Source of the DNA: Crocosphaera sp. UHCC 0190
GTDB taxonomy: Bacteria; Cyanobacteriota; Cyanobacteriia; Cyanobacteriales; Microcystaceae
Assembly: GCF_034932065.1 (NCBI RefSeq)
Contig: NZ_JAYGHP010000006.1
Span: 1-64,000, forward strand
Reading direction: 5' to 3'
DNA: 64,000 nt
This document shows, in pieces, positions 38,802 to 46,927 of the stretch. Both the position numbers and the translations under genes were made by a program. Numbering within the stretch: position 1 is the first letter of the stretch; each line of letters opens with the position of its first letter. The notes below the pieces were generated by a model, which saw only the letters and a program-made list of their open reading frames with translations, was not told the origin of the DNA and searched no databases.

Positions 38802-39116
38802 ATGAGTCAGACCCCCATAACAGTTACTTACTCGTTAGAAGAAGTCTTAGGAGAGATCAAGCAAAGTATCAAAGACGTAAATCAGAACCTAGACACCCTA
38901 AAAAAAGATTTGAGTGACTTTAGGACTGAGACTAGAGTATCTATTGAATCACTTAAGGGGGAAATTAAAACTCTTGATACGGAAGTCAAAGGAATTAATA
39001 AACGGTTAGATTCTCAAGAATTTATCAATCGTTCGGTTTCAGTTGGCTTCATTTTAGCCTTTATCACAGGGGTTATCAAGTTATTTTTTCCGAACCTTCT
39101 CAACTTTCCCCATTAA
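38802..39116 (+). CDS. Coiled-coil protein with C-terminal membrane anchor
   Basis: The 104 residues are a long heptad-like coiled coil (about 10-75, with VNQNLDTLKKDLSDFRTET and LKGEIKTLDTEVKGINKRLD) followed by one membrane segment (about 80-98). The layout is typical of tail-anchored cyanobacterial hypotheticals. TAGGAG lies about 10 bp before the ATG. No partner is obvious. Confidence 0.75.
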   Translation: MSQTPITVTYSLEEVLGEIKQSIKDVNQNLDTLKKDLSDFRTETRVSIESLKGEIKTLDTEVKGINKRLDSQEFINRSVSVGFILAFITGVIKLFFPNLLNFPH

Positions 39117-39173: not shown

Positions 39174-40337
39174 ATGAATAAAGCGATCGCAATATTATCT
39201 ATCGGACTCGGATTAATCTTTTGTAGCCCACAAATAATAAGTTCAGAAGAACCGCCATTAAGTCAAGTTAAACTGACAGAAATTAATGCAGTTTGGGGAG
39301 AAGATGAACAACTTTGGGGAACTGCAGAAAACCCAGGAGATAAATGGGCATTAATTCGAGCAATTAGTTATAGTTTACGTTATTTAGATACCCCAAAAGC
39401 GGCTGAAGTTTATAATAATTATCCTATTCCTGGTATTACTCGTGATCGTGTGCGTCGTTCTTTAATCAGGTTTAAGGAATTATTAAAAACCGCTAAAAAC
39501 CCCGAAGAATTGCAAACAGCAGTACAAAAAGAGTTTATTTTATATCAATCTCAAGGCAATGATAATCAAGGAACTGTACATTTTACAGGCTATTTTGAAC
39601 CTGTTTATACAGCAAGTCGTCAGCGTACTCAAGAATATATTTATCCTCTTTATCGTCAACCCAAAAACTTTGAAAGTTTGGCAAAACCTCACCCAACTCG
39701 TTTAGAATTAGAAGGAAAAGATGGCTTAGGAAATAGTAGTATTATTAAAGGGAATGAATTAATTTGGATGCGTGATCGATTAGAAGCTTATTTAGTTCAT
39801 GTTCAAGGCTCAGCAAAACTTAAATTAACCGATGGTAAAACTATCAGTATTGGTTACGATGGAAGCACAGATTATCCTTATGTTAGTATCGGTAAAGAGT
39901 TAGTAAATGATGGGGTCTTTGCCTTAGATAAACTAACTTTACCCATTTTAATTGACTATTTAACGAAAAATCCTCAAGAATTAAGTAACTATTTGCCTCG
40001 TAATAATCGTTTTGTTTTTTTTCGGGAAACTAATGGCGCACCCCCTCAAGGAAGTATCGGGGTTCCTGTTACTGCGGAACGTTCCATTGCTACTGATAAA
40101 TCTATTATGCCCCCTGGTGCGTTAGCATTAATAAAAACTCGGATTCCTTATACAACCAACACTGGAGAAATAGAAACTAAATTAGTGAGTCGTTATGTTT
40201 TAGATCAAGATACTGGAAGTGCGATTAAAGGGCCGGGAAGGGTTGATATTTTTATGGGTACAGGGAAAACAGCAGGTGATCGCGCCGGGTTAATTAGTAA
40301 TACGGGACAACTGTATTATTTATTATTAAAAAATTAG
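39174..40337 (+). CDS. mltA: Membrane-bound lytic murein transglycosylase A
   Basis: MltA cleaves glycan strands of peptidoglycan to 1,6-anhydro ends. From the ATG at 39174 (387 residues) a signal peptide is followed by the MltA barrel domain (FTGYFEPVYTASRQRTQEYI; LEAYLVHVQGSAKLKLTDG) and the C-terminal 3D domain with GPGRVDIFMGTGKTAGD carrying the catalytic aspartate. The lipobox is not clear, so it may be soluble in the periplasm. A frame extension to 39138 adds 12 unlikely residues. A 28-bp palindrome begins at the last base of the stop codon. Confidence 0.92.
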   Translation: MNKAIAILSIGLGLIFCSPQIISSEEPPLSQVKLTEINAVWGEDEQLWGTAENPGDKWALIRAISYSLRYLDTPKAAEVYNNYPIPGITRDRVRRSLIRFKELLKTAKNPEELQTAVQKEFILYQSQGNDNQGTVHFTGYFEPVYTASRQRTQEYIYPLYRQPKNFESLAKPHPTRLELEGKDGLGNSSIIKGNELIWMRDRLEAYLVHVQGSAKLKLTDGKTISIGYDGSTDYPYVSIGKELVNDGVFALDKLTLPILIDYLTKNPQELSNYLPRNNRFVFFRETNGAPPQGSIGVPVTAERSIATDKSIMPPGALALIKTRIPYTTNTGEIETKLVSRYVLDQDTGSAIKGPGRVDIFMGTGKTAGDRAGLISNTGQLYYLLLKN

Positions 40338-40364
40338 TAGGGGTCAATATCCGTTGACCCCTAC
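40337..40364. repeat. 28-bp palindrome, GTAGGGGTCAA type
   Basis: Arms GTAGGGGTCAA and TTGACCCCTAC around an imperfect TATCCG centre. It overlaps the last base of the mltA stop codon. Confidence 0.9.
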
Positions 40365-40396: not shown

Positions 40397-42403
40397 ATGA
40401 ATTCTCATCTTTTTGCTTTACAAGCACCCTTTAAACCCACAGGCGATCAACCTCAAGCGATCGCTCAATTAATAGCATCTTTACAAGCAGGAAATCGCTT
40501 TCAAACCCTATTAGGAGCAACGGGAACGGGGAAAACATTTTCCGTTGCTTCGGTGATTGAAAAGATAGGAAAACCGACTTTAGTATTAGCTCATAATAAA
40601 ACATTGGCGGCTCAATTATGTAATGAATTACGACAATTTTTTCCTGATAATGCAGTAGAATATTTTATTAGTTATTATGACTATTATCAGCCAGAGGCTT
40701 ATATTCCTGTAAGTGATACTTATATTGAAAAAACTGCTTCTATTAATGATGAAATTGATATGCTAAGGCATTCAGCAACCCGCTCTTTATTTGAGCGTAA
40801 AGATGTGATTGTTGTTGCTTCTATTAGTTGTATTTATGGTTTAGGAATGCCCGCCGAATATTTAAAGGCATCTGTCCCTTTAGAAGTGGGGAAAGAAGTC
40901 GATCAGCGTCAACTTTTACGAGATTTAGTTACTATTCAATACTCTCGCAATGATCTGGAATTACAACGAGGAAGGTTTCGGGTTAAAGGGGATGTTTTAG
41001 AAATTGTTCCAGCTTATGAAGATAGAGTTATTCGCGTTGAATTTTTTGGTGATGAAATTGATGCTATTCGTTATTTAGATCCAGTCACAGGTGAGATTTT
41101 AAATAGTCTCAAAAACATGAATATTTATCCTGCAAGACATTTTGTTACCCCTGATGAACAATTAGAATCAGCTTGTGAAGCGATTGATTCGGAATTAAAA
41201 GAACAAGTTTCCTTGTTAGAAAAGGCAGGTAAACTATTAGAAGCACAACGAATTGATCAACGCACTCGTTATGATTTAGAACTCTTAAAAGAAGTCGGTT
41301 ATTGTAATGGGGTTGAAAATTATTCTCGTCATTTAGCAGGAAGAAAAGCAGGATCACCACCAGAATGTTTAATTGATTATTTTCCTAAAGATTGGTTATT
41401 AGTAGTTGATGAATCTCATGTAACTGTGCCACAAATTAGAGGGATGTACAATGGAGATCAAGCCCGTAAAAAAGTCTTAATTGATCATGGGTTTCGTTTA
41501 CCGAGTGCCGCAGATAATCGACCTTTAAAATCAGAAGAATTTTGGGATAAAGTGAGTCAGTGTATTTTTGTTTCTGCTACTCCTGGAAATTGGGAAATTG
41601 AACAATCAGAAGATAGAGTTATTCAACAAATTATTCGTCCAACAGGAGTATTAGACCCGGAAATTTTTGTTCGTCCAACAGAGGGGCAGGTTGATGACTT
41701 ATTAGGAGAAATAAAACAAAGAGTTAAGCTCAATGAAAGGGTTTTAATTACTACTTTAACAAAGCGTATGGCTGAAGATTTAACAGAATATTTTCAAGAA
41801 AGAGATGTTAAAGTACAATATTTACATTCAGAAATTAAATCTATTGAACGCATTGAAATTTTACAAGCCTTAAGAAATGGAGAGTTTGATGTATTAATTG
41901 GTGTTAATTTATTAAGAGAAGGATTAGATTTGCCTGAAGTCTCTTTAGTCGCTATTTTAGATGCAGATAAAGAAGGGTTTTTAAGAGCAGAAAAAGCCTT
42001 AATTCAAACTATTGGACGTGCTGCACGTCATATTAATGGACAAGCTATTTTATATGGGGATAATTTAACAGATAGTATGATCAAAGCTATTGAAGAAACT
42101 GAAAGAAGGCGAGGTATTCAAATGGCACATAATAAGCTAAATAATATTACACCACAGTCAATTATTAAGCGTTATAGCAATTCAATTTTATCCTTTTTAG
42201 ACATTTCTCGTCGTTTAAACTCTCAGCAGTTAGAAGAAGTTTATACCCAAGCTGATGATTTACCCTTAGATAAAATCCCAGAATTAATCCAACAATTAGA
42301 AACCCAAATGCAAGAAGCAGCTAAAAATTTAGCGTTTGAAGAAGCAGCCAAATATCGAGATAAAATCAAACATCTGAGAAATAAAATATTAGGGCATAAA
42401 TAG
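40397..42403 (+). CDS. uvrB: Excinuclease ABC subunit B
   Basis: UvrB verifies damage and recruits UvrC in nucleotide excision repair. The 668 residues show the Walker A motif GATGTGKT (40-47), the damage-probing beta-hairpin [12 protein letters not shown] (about 93-104), [10 protein letters not shown], helicase motif DESHV, the motif V/VI region [10 protein letters not shown] and QTIGRAARH, and a C-terminal UVR motif ([15 protein letters not shown]). It is complete and ordinary. It is separated from mltA by a palindromic repeat only. Confidence 0.98.
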
Positions 42404-42429: not shown

Positions 42430-42457
42430 GTAGGGGTCAACGGCCGTTGACCCCTAC
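42430..42457. repeat. 28-bp perfect palindrome, GTAGGGGTCAACGG type
   Basis: Perfect arms GTAGGGGTCAACGG and CCGTTGACCCCTAC, 27 bp after the uvrB stop. A near copy lies at 45642-45669, on the other side of the LamG-LTD gene pair. Confidence 0.92.
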
Positions 42458-42492
42458 TAATTATCTTTGTATTATGTTGGGTAATAATCTAC

Positions 42493-42835
42493 GCGGAATT
42501 TTTGCATTAATCTTTGGTTATGGTTATATTTCTTAAATAAACTCTCTGTAAAATTACTAAAAAAGACAAAACAAGAATGCTTTTTCCGTATTTTTCCTAG
42601 TAGCGATAATCACAATCACAATGGCACAATGAGATTAATCACACAGAAATGATGTTTCAAGTTCCAGTAACAAGAAGAGTCATTAGTTACTTAATTTAAT
42701 AAATCATAAACAGTGTGAGACTACTTTTTTGTGACTTTTCTAAGTCATTAACAATATTAGGAGATTTCCATAATGACGGCTGTACAAATCCTAACGCAAC
42801 AGAATTTACAATCAGTATTAAGTTTTGATGGTAAA
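42493..42835 (+). repeat. Duplicated leader block, copy 1 (promoter, leader and first 20 codons)
   Basis: This block repeats at 43851-44193, exactly 1358 bp away, with only about a dozen differences by eye and no indels. It covers about 280 bp of leader plus the first codons of each LamG-LTD gene. It includes AGGAG before both ATGs. Its left end, GCGGAATTTTTG, is the 3' half of the terminator seen in full before copy 2. Confidence 0.92.
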
Positions 42836-43804
42836 GATGATTATATTGATCTCGCTAAAAAGTCAGTCTTTAATGTTAGTAAAAACTTAACACTTTCTGC
42901 TTGGATTAATGTTAACAGCAACCGGGAATGGGCAGCAATTATTTCCAAGATTTTTGATACAGGTTCTACTGAAAGTGGTTATGGTATCCTTCTTGATGGC
43001 AAAAGTGGTGTATATTTTGGTTTAAAAGTGCCATCAAAAGGGATTCAATATCTTAGCAGTGGTGCTAATACCGTGAAACTCAATCAGTGGCATCATATTG
43101 CTTGCACCTATGATGGTCAAACCATAAAAATTTATATTGATGGTGTTGAAAAAGCGTCCCAAAATCTTCCTGATTCTAAAATTGATTATGAGCCTGAAAA
43201 TAACTTATATATTGGGATGTATAAGGATGACAATGAAGCCTATCATTATACAGGTAAAATAGCCGAAGTTTGTGTTTGGGATAAAGTTTGTACCCTTGAA
43301 GAAATCAAACAAAATATGAACCATCGTTTAACTGGCAAAGAAGCTGGTTTAATCGGTTATTGGCCCTTAAATGGGAATGCTTCTGATCAAACTGCTAATA
43401 ATAATAGCGGAGCAATTAATGGAGCAAATTGGACACAAGAAAACTTAGAATTTCTGCAACCTCTTAAAGCTAATGTAGAGATTGCGGAAATTGTTTACAA
43501 AGGCCATGTAAAACGGACTCAATCTGATGAATATATTGAGATTCGTAATAGTGGTAATGGTGCTGCTGACTTATCCAATTGGAAAGTTACCTCATCAGGA
43601 AAGGAGCAAATCTTTGCATTTCCAGAAGGTACATCTTTAGCCGCAGGTCAAATTATTCGAGTTTATACTAACGAAGTTCATCAAGAATCAGGTGGTTTTA
43701 GTTTCGGCAGTAAAACGGCTATTTGGAACGATAAAGGTGACATGGGTAAAGTATTAGATTCTGAAGGCAATGAAGTGTCTAGCTTTAGCTATGATAATAA
43801 CTAA
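42773..43804 (+). CDS. LamG-LTD protein, first of a tandem pair
   Basis: The 343 residues have a LamG/concanavalin-like jelly-roll domain (about 12-225: VLSFDGKDDYIDL, LTLSAWINVNS, NQWHHIACTYDGQTIKIYID, GKIAEVCVWDKV). A Lamin Tail Domain follows (about 233-340: DEYIEIRNSGNGAADLSNWK, FAFPEGTSLAAGQIIRVYTN). LamG folds bind glycans or proteins; LTDs are found on secreted and nuclear proteins. There is no signal peptide, so localisation is unclear. A terminator follows. Its partner gene shares leader, N-terminus and LTD, while the LamG region has diverged. Confidence 0.85.
   Translation: MTAVQILTQQNLQSVLSFDGKDDYIDLAKKSVFNVSKNLTLSAWINVNSNREWAAIISKIFDTGSTESGYGILLDGKSGVYFGLKVPSKGIQYLSSGANTVKLNQWHHIACTYDGQTIKIYIDGVEKASQNLPDSKIDYEPENNLYIGMYKDDNEAYHYTGKIAEVCVWDKVCTLEEIKQNMNHRLTGKEAGLIGYWPLNGNASDQTANNNSGAINGANWTQENLEFLQPLKANVEIAEIVYKGHVKRTQSDEYIEIRNSGNGAADLSNWKVTSSGKEQIFAFPEGTSLAAGQIIRVYTNEVHQESGGFSFGSKTAIWNDKGDMGKVLDSEGNEVSSFSYDNN
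43475..43794 (+). repeat. Duplicated LTD-coding block, copy 1 (copy 2 at 44803-45122)
   Basis: About 320 bp coding for the Lamin Tail Domain match 44803-45122 with about ten base differences by eye. The offset is 1328 bp, against 1358 bp for the leader blocks, so the LamG segment between differs by 30 bp. Confidence 0.9.
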
Positions 43805-43829
43805 GTCATTCAATTGAATTTAGTTAATG

Positions 43830-43861
43830 ATTCCGCATAGCTTTCTGTATGCGGAATTTTT
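43830..43861 (+). terminator. Rho-independent terminator of the first LamG-LTD gene
   Basis: Ten-bp arms ATTCCGCATA and TATGCGGAAT, 8-nt loop, then TTTT. Its 3' arm is also the first sequence of the duplicated leader block. Confidence 0.88.
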
Positions 43862-44193
43862 GTATTAATCTTGGGTTATGGTTATATTTCTTAAATAAAC
43901 TCTCTGTAAAATTACTAAAAAAGACAAAACAAGCATGATTTTTCCGTATTTTTCCTAGTAGCGATAATCACAATCACAATGGCACAATGAGATTAATCAC
44001 ACAGAAATGATGTTTCAAGTTCCAGTAACAAGAAGAATCATTAGTTACTTAATTTAATAAATCATAAACAGTGTGAGACTACTTTTTTGTGACTTTTCTA
44101 AGTCATTAACAATATTAGGAGATTTTCAAAATGACGGCTGTACAAACCCTAACGCAACAGAATTTACAATCAGTCTTAAATTTTGATGGACAA
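43851..44193 (+). repeat. Duplicated leader block, copy 2
   Basis: Matches 42493-42835 without indels. It overlaps the 3' arm of the terminator of the first LamG-LTD gene. The strong conservation over non-coding bases points either to a recent event or to a leader under selection. Confidence 0.92.
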
Positions 44194-45609
44194 GATGACT
44201 ATGTAGAAATTCGAGATCCTTTTGAAAATAATACAGCTTTTACGATTTCTCTTTGGATTAATCCTGCTCTTTTAAATTCTGCTTTCCATGGATTTATTGG
44301 GAAACAAGGAGATGCACATCGTAAACCTGGAATGTGGATATGTCCTAGTGATAAGGCACTACATTATGACTCCTATAGTACCTCCGATCAACGTTATTCT
44401 GGTGTATTAAAAAATTTCTTTGAAAGTACGCAACAATGGGTTCATATTGCCTGGGTAAAAGAGGATACTGAGTACAAAATCTATCGCAACGGAGAACTAT
44501 TTGCAACTGAACCTGCACCCACCAATTTTTATACAACGAATACTAGCTATTGGTTAGGAAGAGTTGATAATTTTTTTCCTGGAAAAATGACAGAAGTTCG
44601 TATCTGGAATAAAGCCCGCAGCCAAGGGGAAATCAAAAAAGATATGAACCATCGTTTAACAGGCAAAGAAGCAGGCTTAATGGCTTATTTCCCCTTAAAT
44701 GGTGATGTTTTTGATCAAACTAACAATAATAATAACGGAACGATTCACGGGGCAAGTTGGACAGAAGAAAACTTAGACTGTCTTGAACCTTTGAAGGCTA
44801 CAGTAGAGATTGCGGAAATTGTTTACAAAGGCCATGTAAAACGGACTCAATCTGATGAATATATTGAGATTCGTAATAGTGGTAATGGTGTTGCTGACTT
44901 ATCTAATTGGAAAGTTACCTCATCAGGAAAGGATCAAATCTTTGCATTTCCAGAAGGTACATCTTTAGCCGCAGGTCAAATTATTCGAGTTTATACTAAC
45001 GAAGTTCATCAAGAATCAGGTGGTTTTAGTTTCGGCAGTAAAACGGCTATTTGGAACGATAAAGGTGACATCGGTAAAGTATTAGATGCTGAAGGAAATG
45101 AAGTATCTAGTTTTAGTTACGGTGATCAACCTAAAAAAGAAGAGTCTGTTGATACTATTAAAGCAGAATTAGGCATTTCTGGGTTAAAAATTAACATCAG
45201 TGAAAGCGATATTAAGCAGTTAATGACACCTCAAATTAAAGTCAGCTTTTTAGATGCTTTCCGCAGTGCCATGAAAAGCTTTATGGAAGATGGAAACTTA
45301 GGAGAAAGTCCCCTATCTATTCTTCACGAATTACCTGGAGAATATGGCTTATCCGATAACCCTAATGCCCAAGAAATGAATGAGAAAATGAAAGAATTAC
45401 TCAATGATTGTGGCATGGAATTACTCACTGATGCAGAAGATCCTGCGGATGAATGGGCAGGTAAAGTGATGTGTGATGAAACAGGAGAACAATACGGAAC
45501 TAATAGCTATTGGATCTTTAAATTATCTCCCTCTCAATTTACTGATCTTAACTATGCTGTGGTTGATAAAGCTGGAGTTAAACCTACCGTTAACTGGGGT
45601 TTCAGCTAA
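44131..45609 (+). CDS. LamG-LTD protein with an extra C-terminal domain, second of the pair
   Basis: The first 20 residues and the LTD (about 225-335) nearly equal those of the upstream gene. The LamG domain between (VLNFDGQDDYVEIRD, FTISLWINPALLN, WVHIAWVKEDTEYKIYRNGE, GKMTEVRIWNKA) is only distantly similar. Residues about 339-492 are an added acidic domain with DTIKAELGISGLKINISESD and PGEYGLSDNPNAQEMNEKMK, ending PTVNWGFS, which I do not recognise. It has no signal peptide. It is preceded by its own copy of the leader, so both genes are probably under the same control. A 28-bp palindrome lies 33 bp after the stop. Confidence 0.85.
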   Translation: MTAVQTLTQQNLQSVLNFDGQDDYVEIRDPFENNTAFTISLWINPALLNSAFHGFIGKQGDAHRKPGMWICPSDKALHYDSYSTSDQRYSGVLKNFFESTQQWVHIAWVKEDTEYKIYRNGELFATEPAPTNFYTTNTSYWLGRVDNFFPGKMTEVRIWNKARSQGEIKKDMNHRLTGKEAGLMAYFPLNGDVFDQTNNNNNGTIHGASWTEENLDCLEPLKATVEIAEIVYKGHVKRTQSDEYIEIRNSGNGVADLSNWKVTSSGKDQIFAFPEGTSLAAGQIIRVYTNEVHQESGGFSFGSKTAIWNDKGDIGKVLDAEGNEVSSFSYGDQPKKEESVDTIKAELGISGLKINISESDIKQLMTPQIKVSFLDAFRSAMKSFMEDGNLGESPLSILHELPGEYGLSDNPNAQEMNEKMKELLNDCGMELLTDAEDPADEWAGKVMCDETGEQYGTNSYWIFKLSPSQFTDLNYAVVDKAGVKPTVNWGFS

Positions 45610-45641: not shown

Positions 45642-45669
45642 CTAGGGGGCAACGGCCGTTGACCCCTAC
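45642..45669. repeat. 28-bp palindrome, near copy of 42430-42457
   Basis: CTAGGGGGCAACGG and CCGTTGACCCCTAC arms, differing from the 42430 copy at two positions. It lies 33 bp after the second LamG-LTD stop. Confidence 0.88.
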
Positions 45670-45778: not shown

Positions 45779-46927
45779 ATGGATAACGCCTTATTAGTTC
45801 AACTCATTGGCATTAGCGGTTACATTATTTATATCACCACCTCAGCAGCGGTATACGGTATTTTTGCCCTAGGACTAAATTTACAATGGGGTTTCACTGG
45901 ACTCATTAACTTTGGCGTGGTTGCTTTCATGACCTTGGGAGCCTATACTACTGTTTTATTAACCCTCACAGGTTTTCCCTTCGTCCTTGCCATCTTAGCG
46001 GGTGCAGTTTTAGCAGCAATATTAGGGTTATTAATTGGACTTTCTACCTTACGTCTCAGGGAAGATTATCTTGCTATTGTTACGATTGGGGTATCAGAAT
46101 TAGTTCGTTTAGTTGCGTTAAATGAAGAATGGTTGACTAAAGGTGCATTAGGATTAAGACAATATCCCCTTCCCTTGAATATTGAACCAAGTTTTCCCCT
46201 TAAATTAAGTCTCATTGCTATCTTAACTCTTTTAGGAATTTATGCAGGATGGACACTCTATAAAAGTCTTGCTTCTCAATGGAAACAAAATAAGGAAATT
46301 CAAGGTAAAAGTTATCAACCGAGAAAACCTATTACTTTAGTTATTTGGGGAATTATTGCCACCGCTTTAATCTTATTAGTGTATATTACAGGAATAACAG
46401 CCCTTTCTTATTATACCTATAAAGCCGGATTAATGGTGTTGGTTTTGTCTGTCTTAGCGATCACTTATAGTGGATTAGAATTTTTAGTTCATTCTCCTTG
46501 GGGACGCATTCTTAAAGCCATTCGAGAAGATGAAGAAATTCCCAAAGCTCTAGGCAAAAATATTTTATGGTATAAGTTACAATCTTTTATGTTAGGCGGT
46601 GCGATCGCCGGTATTGCAGGTGCTTTCTTTGCTTGGCAATTAACGGCAATTTATCCCGATAAATTTGATCCTCTAATTACTTTTAATACTTGGATTATTG
46701 TTGTTTTAGGTGGTTCAGGTAGTAATGCAGGTACAATTTTAGGAGCAATTATTTTTTGGGCTTATGATTCCTTAACGCGCTTTATATTACCTCAACTTGG
46801 TATTTTAAGTCCCAGTCAAGCTGGTTATTTTCGGATTATGGTAATTGGCTTAATTTTAATGGTCTTAATGGTTTGGCGACCTCAAGGAATTTTAGGTAAA
46901 AAAGAAGAATTAACCTTAGGTCGTTAA
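45779..46927 (+). CDS. livM: Branched-chain amino acid ABC transporter permease, LivM family
   Basis: This 382-residue polytopic membrane protein has AVYGIFALGLNLQWGFTGLI near the N-terminus, the typical TLRLREDYLAIVTIGVSELV, the cytoplasmic coupling segment HSPWGRILKAIREDEEIPKA and the C-terminal VLGGSGSNAGTILGA. All are LivM/BraE signatures. In cyanobacteria the neutral amino acid N-I system spreads its Nat genes over the genome, which would fit this lone permease. An insert of about 60 residues lies after LRQYPLPL. Substrate choice is inference. Confidence 0.9.
   Translation: MDNALLVQLIGISGYIIYITTSAAVYGIFALGLNLQWGFTGLINFGVVAFMTLGAYTTVLLTLTGFPFVLAILAGAVLAAILGLLIGLSTLRLREDYLAIVTIGVSELVRLVALNEEWLTKGALGLRQYPLPLNIEPSFPLKLSLIAILTLLGIYAGWTLYKSLASQWKQNKEIQGKSYQPRKPITLVIWGIIATALILLVYITGITALSYYTYKAGLMVLVLSVLAITYSGLEFLVHSPWGRILKAIREDEEIPKALGKNILWYKLQSFMLGGAIAGIAGAFFAWQLTAIYPDKFDPLITFNTWIIVVLGGSGSNAGTILGAIIFWAYDSLTRFILPQLGILSPSQAGYFRIMVIGLILMVLMVWRPQGILGKKEELTLGR

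Follow-up and report, generated by a model that had tools for sequence, protein, structure and literature searches.

Concerted evolution of prokaryotic paralogues by gene conversion is known from psbA, psbD and tuf, and conversion of psbA and psbD is well described in cyanobacteria (PMC6053082). Domain movement (DOMO) in the specificity genes of type I restriction systems shifts variable recognition domains through recombination at the conserved repeats beside them (PMC3077401), and core/tip displacement in Rhs decouples a constant core from a variable end by homologous recombination (PMC2935791). The role of prokaryotic lamin-tail domains has been poorly understood so far, and the literature searched, subscription journals lying mostly outside it, yielded nothing on lamin-tail or LamG domains in this setting and no account of lamin-tail proteins exchanging heads.

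The window, i.e. the whole stretch of 64,000 nucleotides analysed here, was found to carry two tandem genes, A and B, both on the + strand between uvrB and a gene which, judged from its sequence, encodes a LivM-like permease (ORF list). Both predicted proteins contain a Laminin_G_3 domain (LamG, PF13385; 112.2 bits in A and 78.8 bits in B, gathering cut-off 27.6) and a Lamin Tail Domain (LTD, PF00932; 72.5 and 69.7 bits, gathering cut-off 34.3). Gene B is longer than gene A because it has an extra C-terminal domain of ~160 aa, for which no Pfam match was obtained. The relatives compared were the Crocosphaera MAGs MO_133.B10 and MO_188.B44 (MO_133 and MO_188 below), G017 from the same genus group, Cyanothece BG0011 and Cyanothece UBA12306; the host genus is sampled by one genome, and the comparisons are between species and genera. 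The features of the locus are:

40397-42403, + strand: uvrB, upstream neighbour of the pair (ORF translation)
42430-42457, no strand: 28-bp perfect palindrome, terminator-like, 5' of the pair
42490-42503, + strand: 3' arm of a gene-A-type terminator, opening leader A (alignment)
42490-42772, + strand: leader of gene A, the secondary copy, 97% identical to 43848-44130
42773-43804, + strand: gene A, 343 aa; constant 22-codon N-terminus, LamG-A, hinge and LTD, ending ...SFSYDNN
42827-43309, + strand: LamG-A (Laminin_G_3, Pfam), grouping with Cyanothece BG0011 gene 2
43261-43482, + strand: hinge of gene A, 78% identical to the hinge of gene B
43472-43792, + strand: LTD of gene A (Pfam), with the homogenised tract at about 43483-43743
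43829-43858, + strand: intact terminator 3' of gene A, homologous to the terminator after BG0011 gene 1
43848-44130, + strand: leader of gene B, in its ancestral place 3' of the gene 1 terminator
44131-45609, + strand: gene B, 492 aa; constant N-terminus, LamG-B, hinge, LTD and C-terminal domain
44185-44637, + strand: LamG-B, orthologous to the LamG of Crocosphaera MO_133, MO_188 and G017
44800-45120, + strand: LTD of gene B (Pfam)
45121-45606, + strand: C-terminal domain of gene B, absent from gene A
45779-46927, + strand: presumed branched-chain amino-acid ABC permease, LivM-like, downstream neighbour

Among the features that differ from the sequence-only reading of this DNA are that gene B reaches 45609 and that the leader repeat opens inside the gene A terminator. 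The C-terminal domain of gene B is also present in Crocosphaera, and it follows the LTD in Phormidium, Sphaerospermopsis and a Thiotrichaceae MAG (loci L050-L058). The uvrB gene likewise lies 5' of LTD genes or their remnants in Crocosphaera MO_133 and MO_188 (loci L041 and L045), and the LivM-like gene is also the downstream neighbour in MO_133 and G017. The 28-bp palindrome, GTAGGGGTCAACGGCCGTTGACCCCTAC, occurs in intergenic DNA at 40337-40364, 42430-42457 and 45642-45669, two of these copies flanking the gene pair, and it looks like a repeat family or a terminator. One ORF of the window, at 38802-39116, resembles small coiled-coil proteins encoded beside the MO_188 LamG gene; in that locus (L040, 4640-5664 and 7988-8632) such proteins are tandem and near-identical, have a C-terminal membrane segment and adjoin the LamG gene.

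Genes A and B are alike at their ends and different in the middle. The direct repeats at 42490-42789 and 43848-44147 (300 bp) are 97% identical, in agreement with the near-identical ~280-bp leaders that the sequence-only reading had described for two tandem genes, and the 20 alike codons that it reported extend to a constant N-terminus of 22 codons, with a drop in identity at codon ~22 (about 42838). In a 60-bp windowed profile, the leaders of A and B match at 57-60 of 60 positions, LamG gives 14-30 matches per 36-60 aligned bases, the hinge (43253-43480) 42-52 of 60, and the LTD again 57-60 of 60 from about 43483, where identity rises. The strong divergence of LamG between its flanks was thus confirmed, the cores being ~40% identical at the DNA level, and the LTD, for which about ten differences in 320 bp had been estimated, has 12 in 321 nt (96.3% identical). 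A and B clearly differ again over the final ~55 bp of their common LTD; with the hinge diverged as well, the near-identical LTD core (43483-43743) forms a tract with limits at either end. A smooth gradient of divergence had been named as the observation that would speak against a mosaic; the borders found were steps, with an intermediate hinge. At variable sites, runs of identity between A and B were longer than in any of 10,000 permutations for three stretches of the leader and for the longest stretch of the LTD. Genome-wide, the leader, the LamG_3 domain and the LTD of the A/B kind were each found exactly twice.

Comparison with the relatives gave different histories for these parts. In the LTD tree A and B are sisters (99/99) and an orthologous clade is rejected (p-AU 0.0004), and in the leader tree they are joined at 100/100 with the alternative topology rejected (p-AU 0.0003). 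In the LamG tree it is the clade of A and B that is rejected (p-AU 0.0007): LamG-B joins the Crocosphaera genes (76-81% aa identity, dS 0.37-0.56), and LamG-A joins gene 2 of BG0011, an A-type comparison based on this one gene, degraded and at a contig end, in small samples. The site patterns were distributed in the same way, with 52 leader sites separating A and B from Crocosphaera versus 3 against, 26 sites of the LTD core uniting A and B versus 4 against, and 8 LamG sites for such a union versus 167 against. Between the LTDs of A and B dS is 0.10, versus 0.60-0.71 to those of MO_188, MO_133 and BG0011; for LamG the values are dS 0.94 and dN 0.51 between A and B, and dS 0.37 and dN 0.09 between LamG-B and MO_188. 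From the trees, the dS values and the site patterns it follows that the LamG lineages predate the genus split and that the leader and LTD core were homogenised later. A single common cause, interlocus recombination, accounts for both the likeness of leader and LTD core and the conflict in LamG; that recombination homogenised the flanks, which had been proposed from the window as gene conversion, is strongly supported by this alignment with relatives.

The direction of copying was deduced from the remains of an older gene. The 3' end of gene A (...SFSYDNN) and its terminator have homologous counterparts in gene 1 of BG0011 (0 of 2000 shuffles reached an equal score), an X-domain-LTD gene located directly 5' of the leader and gene 2. 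In MO_133, a stub of ~110 bp of the gene 1 LTD, ending ...SFSYDNH, lies 5' of the leader. Because of this homology and this stub, gene A occupies the old gene 1 slot and leader B the ancestral place. The slot now has a copied leader of gene 2 type and a LamG-A head on an LTD tail of gene 1 type, and gene 2 has LamG-B. The first bases of leader A (42490-42503) are the 3' arm of the terminator of gene 1, and this half-terminator marks leader A as the copied one; the scar suggests that leader A was copied from the intergenic region between gene 1 and gene 2. A segment of 103 bp of the leader can also be recognised 5' of BG0011 gene 1 (72%, E 3e-12), which fits a common regulatory element.

The pair is therefore best explained, with good probability, as an old tandem lectin-type locus in which recombination between neighbouring copies exchanges heads while the leader and LTD arms evolve in concert. 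The ancestral order would have been gene 1, then the leader and gene 2, between uvrB and the LivM-like permease gene. A leader-LamG-A-LTD unit of gene 2 type would have entered gene 1 by recombination in the LTD and displaced the X head there, and conversion of the leader and LTD core between A and B would have come afterwards. Such events, unequal recombination or gene conversion, would have two homology arms, the leader with the N-terminus in front of the head and the LTD behind it, and, recurring, would either replace a head or homogenise the arms, so that heads remain exchangeable and arms evolve in concert. The LTD may act as a common docking or assembly part, the leader may give both genes the same expression, and the LamG-A and LamG-B heads may recognise different glycan-type ligands. 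As for tempo, the best reading is a slow, evolutionary exchange of heads together with concerted evolution of leader and LTD.

A rival history starts from a recent duplication of gene B in tandem, after which the LamG and hinge of one copy were replaced by a lateral LamG-A with no repeated conversion. It would account for a replaced block that is one continuous segment of ~650 bp, and an A-type donor is present in BG0011. It is nevertheless rather unlikely, as gene A has the tail and terminator of a gene 1, with homology to their counterparts in BG0011 gene 1, and the LTD stub of gene 1 persists in MO_133, so that gene 1 predates any duplication of gene B; in addition, diverged sequence lies on either side of the LTD core, as is the case for a conversion tract. 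The good conservation of the LTD across the nearest relatives would agree with old paralogues in which leader and LTD are under strong purifying selection and LamG is free to diverge, with no recombination, but this is the least probable of the explanations: synonymous sites of the LTD are included in the likeness (dS 0.10 between A and B versus 0.6-0.7 to Crocosphaera), the noncoding leaders of A and B are much more alike than either is to that of Crocosphaera, and the trees conflict significantly, the AU tests refuting this explanation for leader and LTD core.

Constant flanks around a variable middle, with heads that differ between species at one locus, also recall an active diversity generator, whether a retroelement or an expression site with silent cassettes, making new LamG variants within the population. 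Such a generator is very improbable here. The search for a reverse transcriptase gave no RVT_1 match in the genome, which rules out a diversity-generating retroelement, and a silent-cassette store is ruled out by the presence of only two LamG_3 domains and two leaders genome-wide, both in full ORFs; the search for further LamG cassettes with the same leader, advised in the sequence-only reading, returned none beyond the pair. The LamG-B orthologues, moreover, are under purifying selection (dN/dS about 0.2-0.3), and dN is also below dS between LamG-A and BG0011, its sole A-type relative. In every comparison of LamG dN stayed below dS, and positive selection on this domain was rejected. Selection for different LamG ligands, which had been part of the original proposal, was hence not borne out, and what speaks for it is solely the retention of two very different LamG heads. 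The proposed diversity-generating arrangement survives as the slower exchange of heads, here and in relatives, and falls as a dedicated generator.

The slow exchange of heads has counterparts in other genomes. In an architecture scan, the LTD relatives were found to have a constant LTD behind LamG-A-like, LamG-B, X domain, D domain or ricin-B heads, and the C-terminal domain of gene B was present in some and missing in others. MO_188 and MO_133 have LamG-B-X-LTD-C at the site of LamG-B-LTD-C in the window, and BG0011 has LamG-A at the gene 2 site where the window has LamG-B. Methylomonas (L059, 4456-7863) and Crenothrix (L060, 2-2877) each carry two tandem LTD genes with unrelated heads, whose LTDs separate by genome (Mm1=Mm2/Cr1=Cr2 at 26 sites, versus 0 and 1 for the other patterns) with ortholog topologies rejected. 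The middle of gene 1 differs between these genera, being either a ricin-B pair or a D domain, and is framed by an N-terminal part 91% identical and an LTD ~90% identical. Two Microcystis species (L014, 706-1845; L015, 1501-3072) differ by an X domain of 432 bp, in frame and directly after codon 16, between flanks 97-98% identical, by either gain or loss. Different central domains between homologous flanks of the same locus were seen, in three comparisons, between species and genera. The recurrence in Methylococcales and the Microcystis indel suggest that prokaryotic lamin-tail domains are a constant base for exchangeable recognition heads. It is possible, though tentative, that bacterial LTD proteins of the A/B type form a widespread head-exchange family in which the LTD is both dock and recombination arm; tandem or transferred genes would then trade LamG, ricin-B, X and D heads, and populations would have a slowly changing set of recognition specificities. 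The viral collection searched contained one distant LTD only. The corresponding locus of G017 (L043, 272-2224), 5' of the LivM-like gene, has a transposase-like ORF that forms an in-frame fusion with a LamG tail and with a second, complete LamG-B.

The LTD has an immunoglobulin-like fold. LamG was assigned to the concanavalin-like fold by sequence and fold comparison, with ConA-like matches such as 4dqa. The AlphaFold model of gene B is weak as a whole, with a mean pLDDT of 59, and is good only in LamG, and the structure model of the X domain (mean pLDDT 46) is too weak to use. The fold search with gene B confirmed no more than the concanavalin-like fold of LamG; it listed many clostridial neurotoxin binding domains at 10-14% identity, matches that reflect a common lectin-type fold and carry no information on toxicity. 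A hydrophobic N-terminal signal was not recognised in the sequence of either protein. The leader had no match near the gathering score in Rfam that would point to a riboswitch or other known RNA, and the consensus fold of five leaders, with its unfavourable covariation term, does not support a structured RNA. With function and ligands inferred from domain names, A and B are most likely a lectin-type recognition pair that would have common regulation through the leader, a common dock or assembly part in the LTD and different ligands.

With psbA, psbD and tuf the locus shares paralogues that are closer within a genome than orthologues at syntenic positions are between species, a likeness attributed in those genes to gene conversion (PMC6053082). 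Those are described as homogenised paralogues, whereas in A and B only the leader, the first 22 codons and the LTD core are homogenised, with the central domain left out or exchanged. The pair is a clear case of partial concerted evolution, with ends homogenised and middle diverged, in which a terminator scar shows the direction of copying. As in DOMO, variable domains move between positions and loci, but the DOMO repeats flank two TRDs in one gene and concern within-species alleles (PMC3077401), whereas A and B belong to another family and were compared between species. Constant and variable parts are decoupled as in Rhs (PMC2935791), the variable part of A and B being the N-terminal head, without an array of silent tips. 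In the flanks of A and B, the LTD and leader cluster by genome, within a bounded tract and with conflicting phylogeny outside it, as is found under concerted evolution, and the locus works like DOMO and Rhs, outside those protein families.
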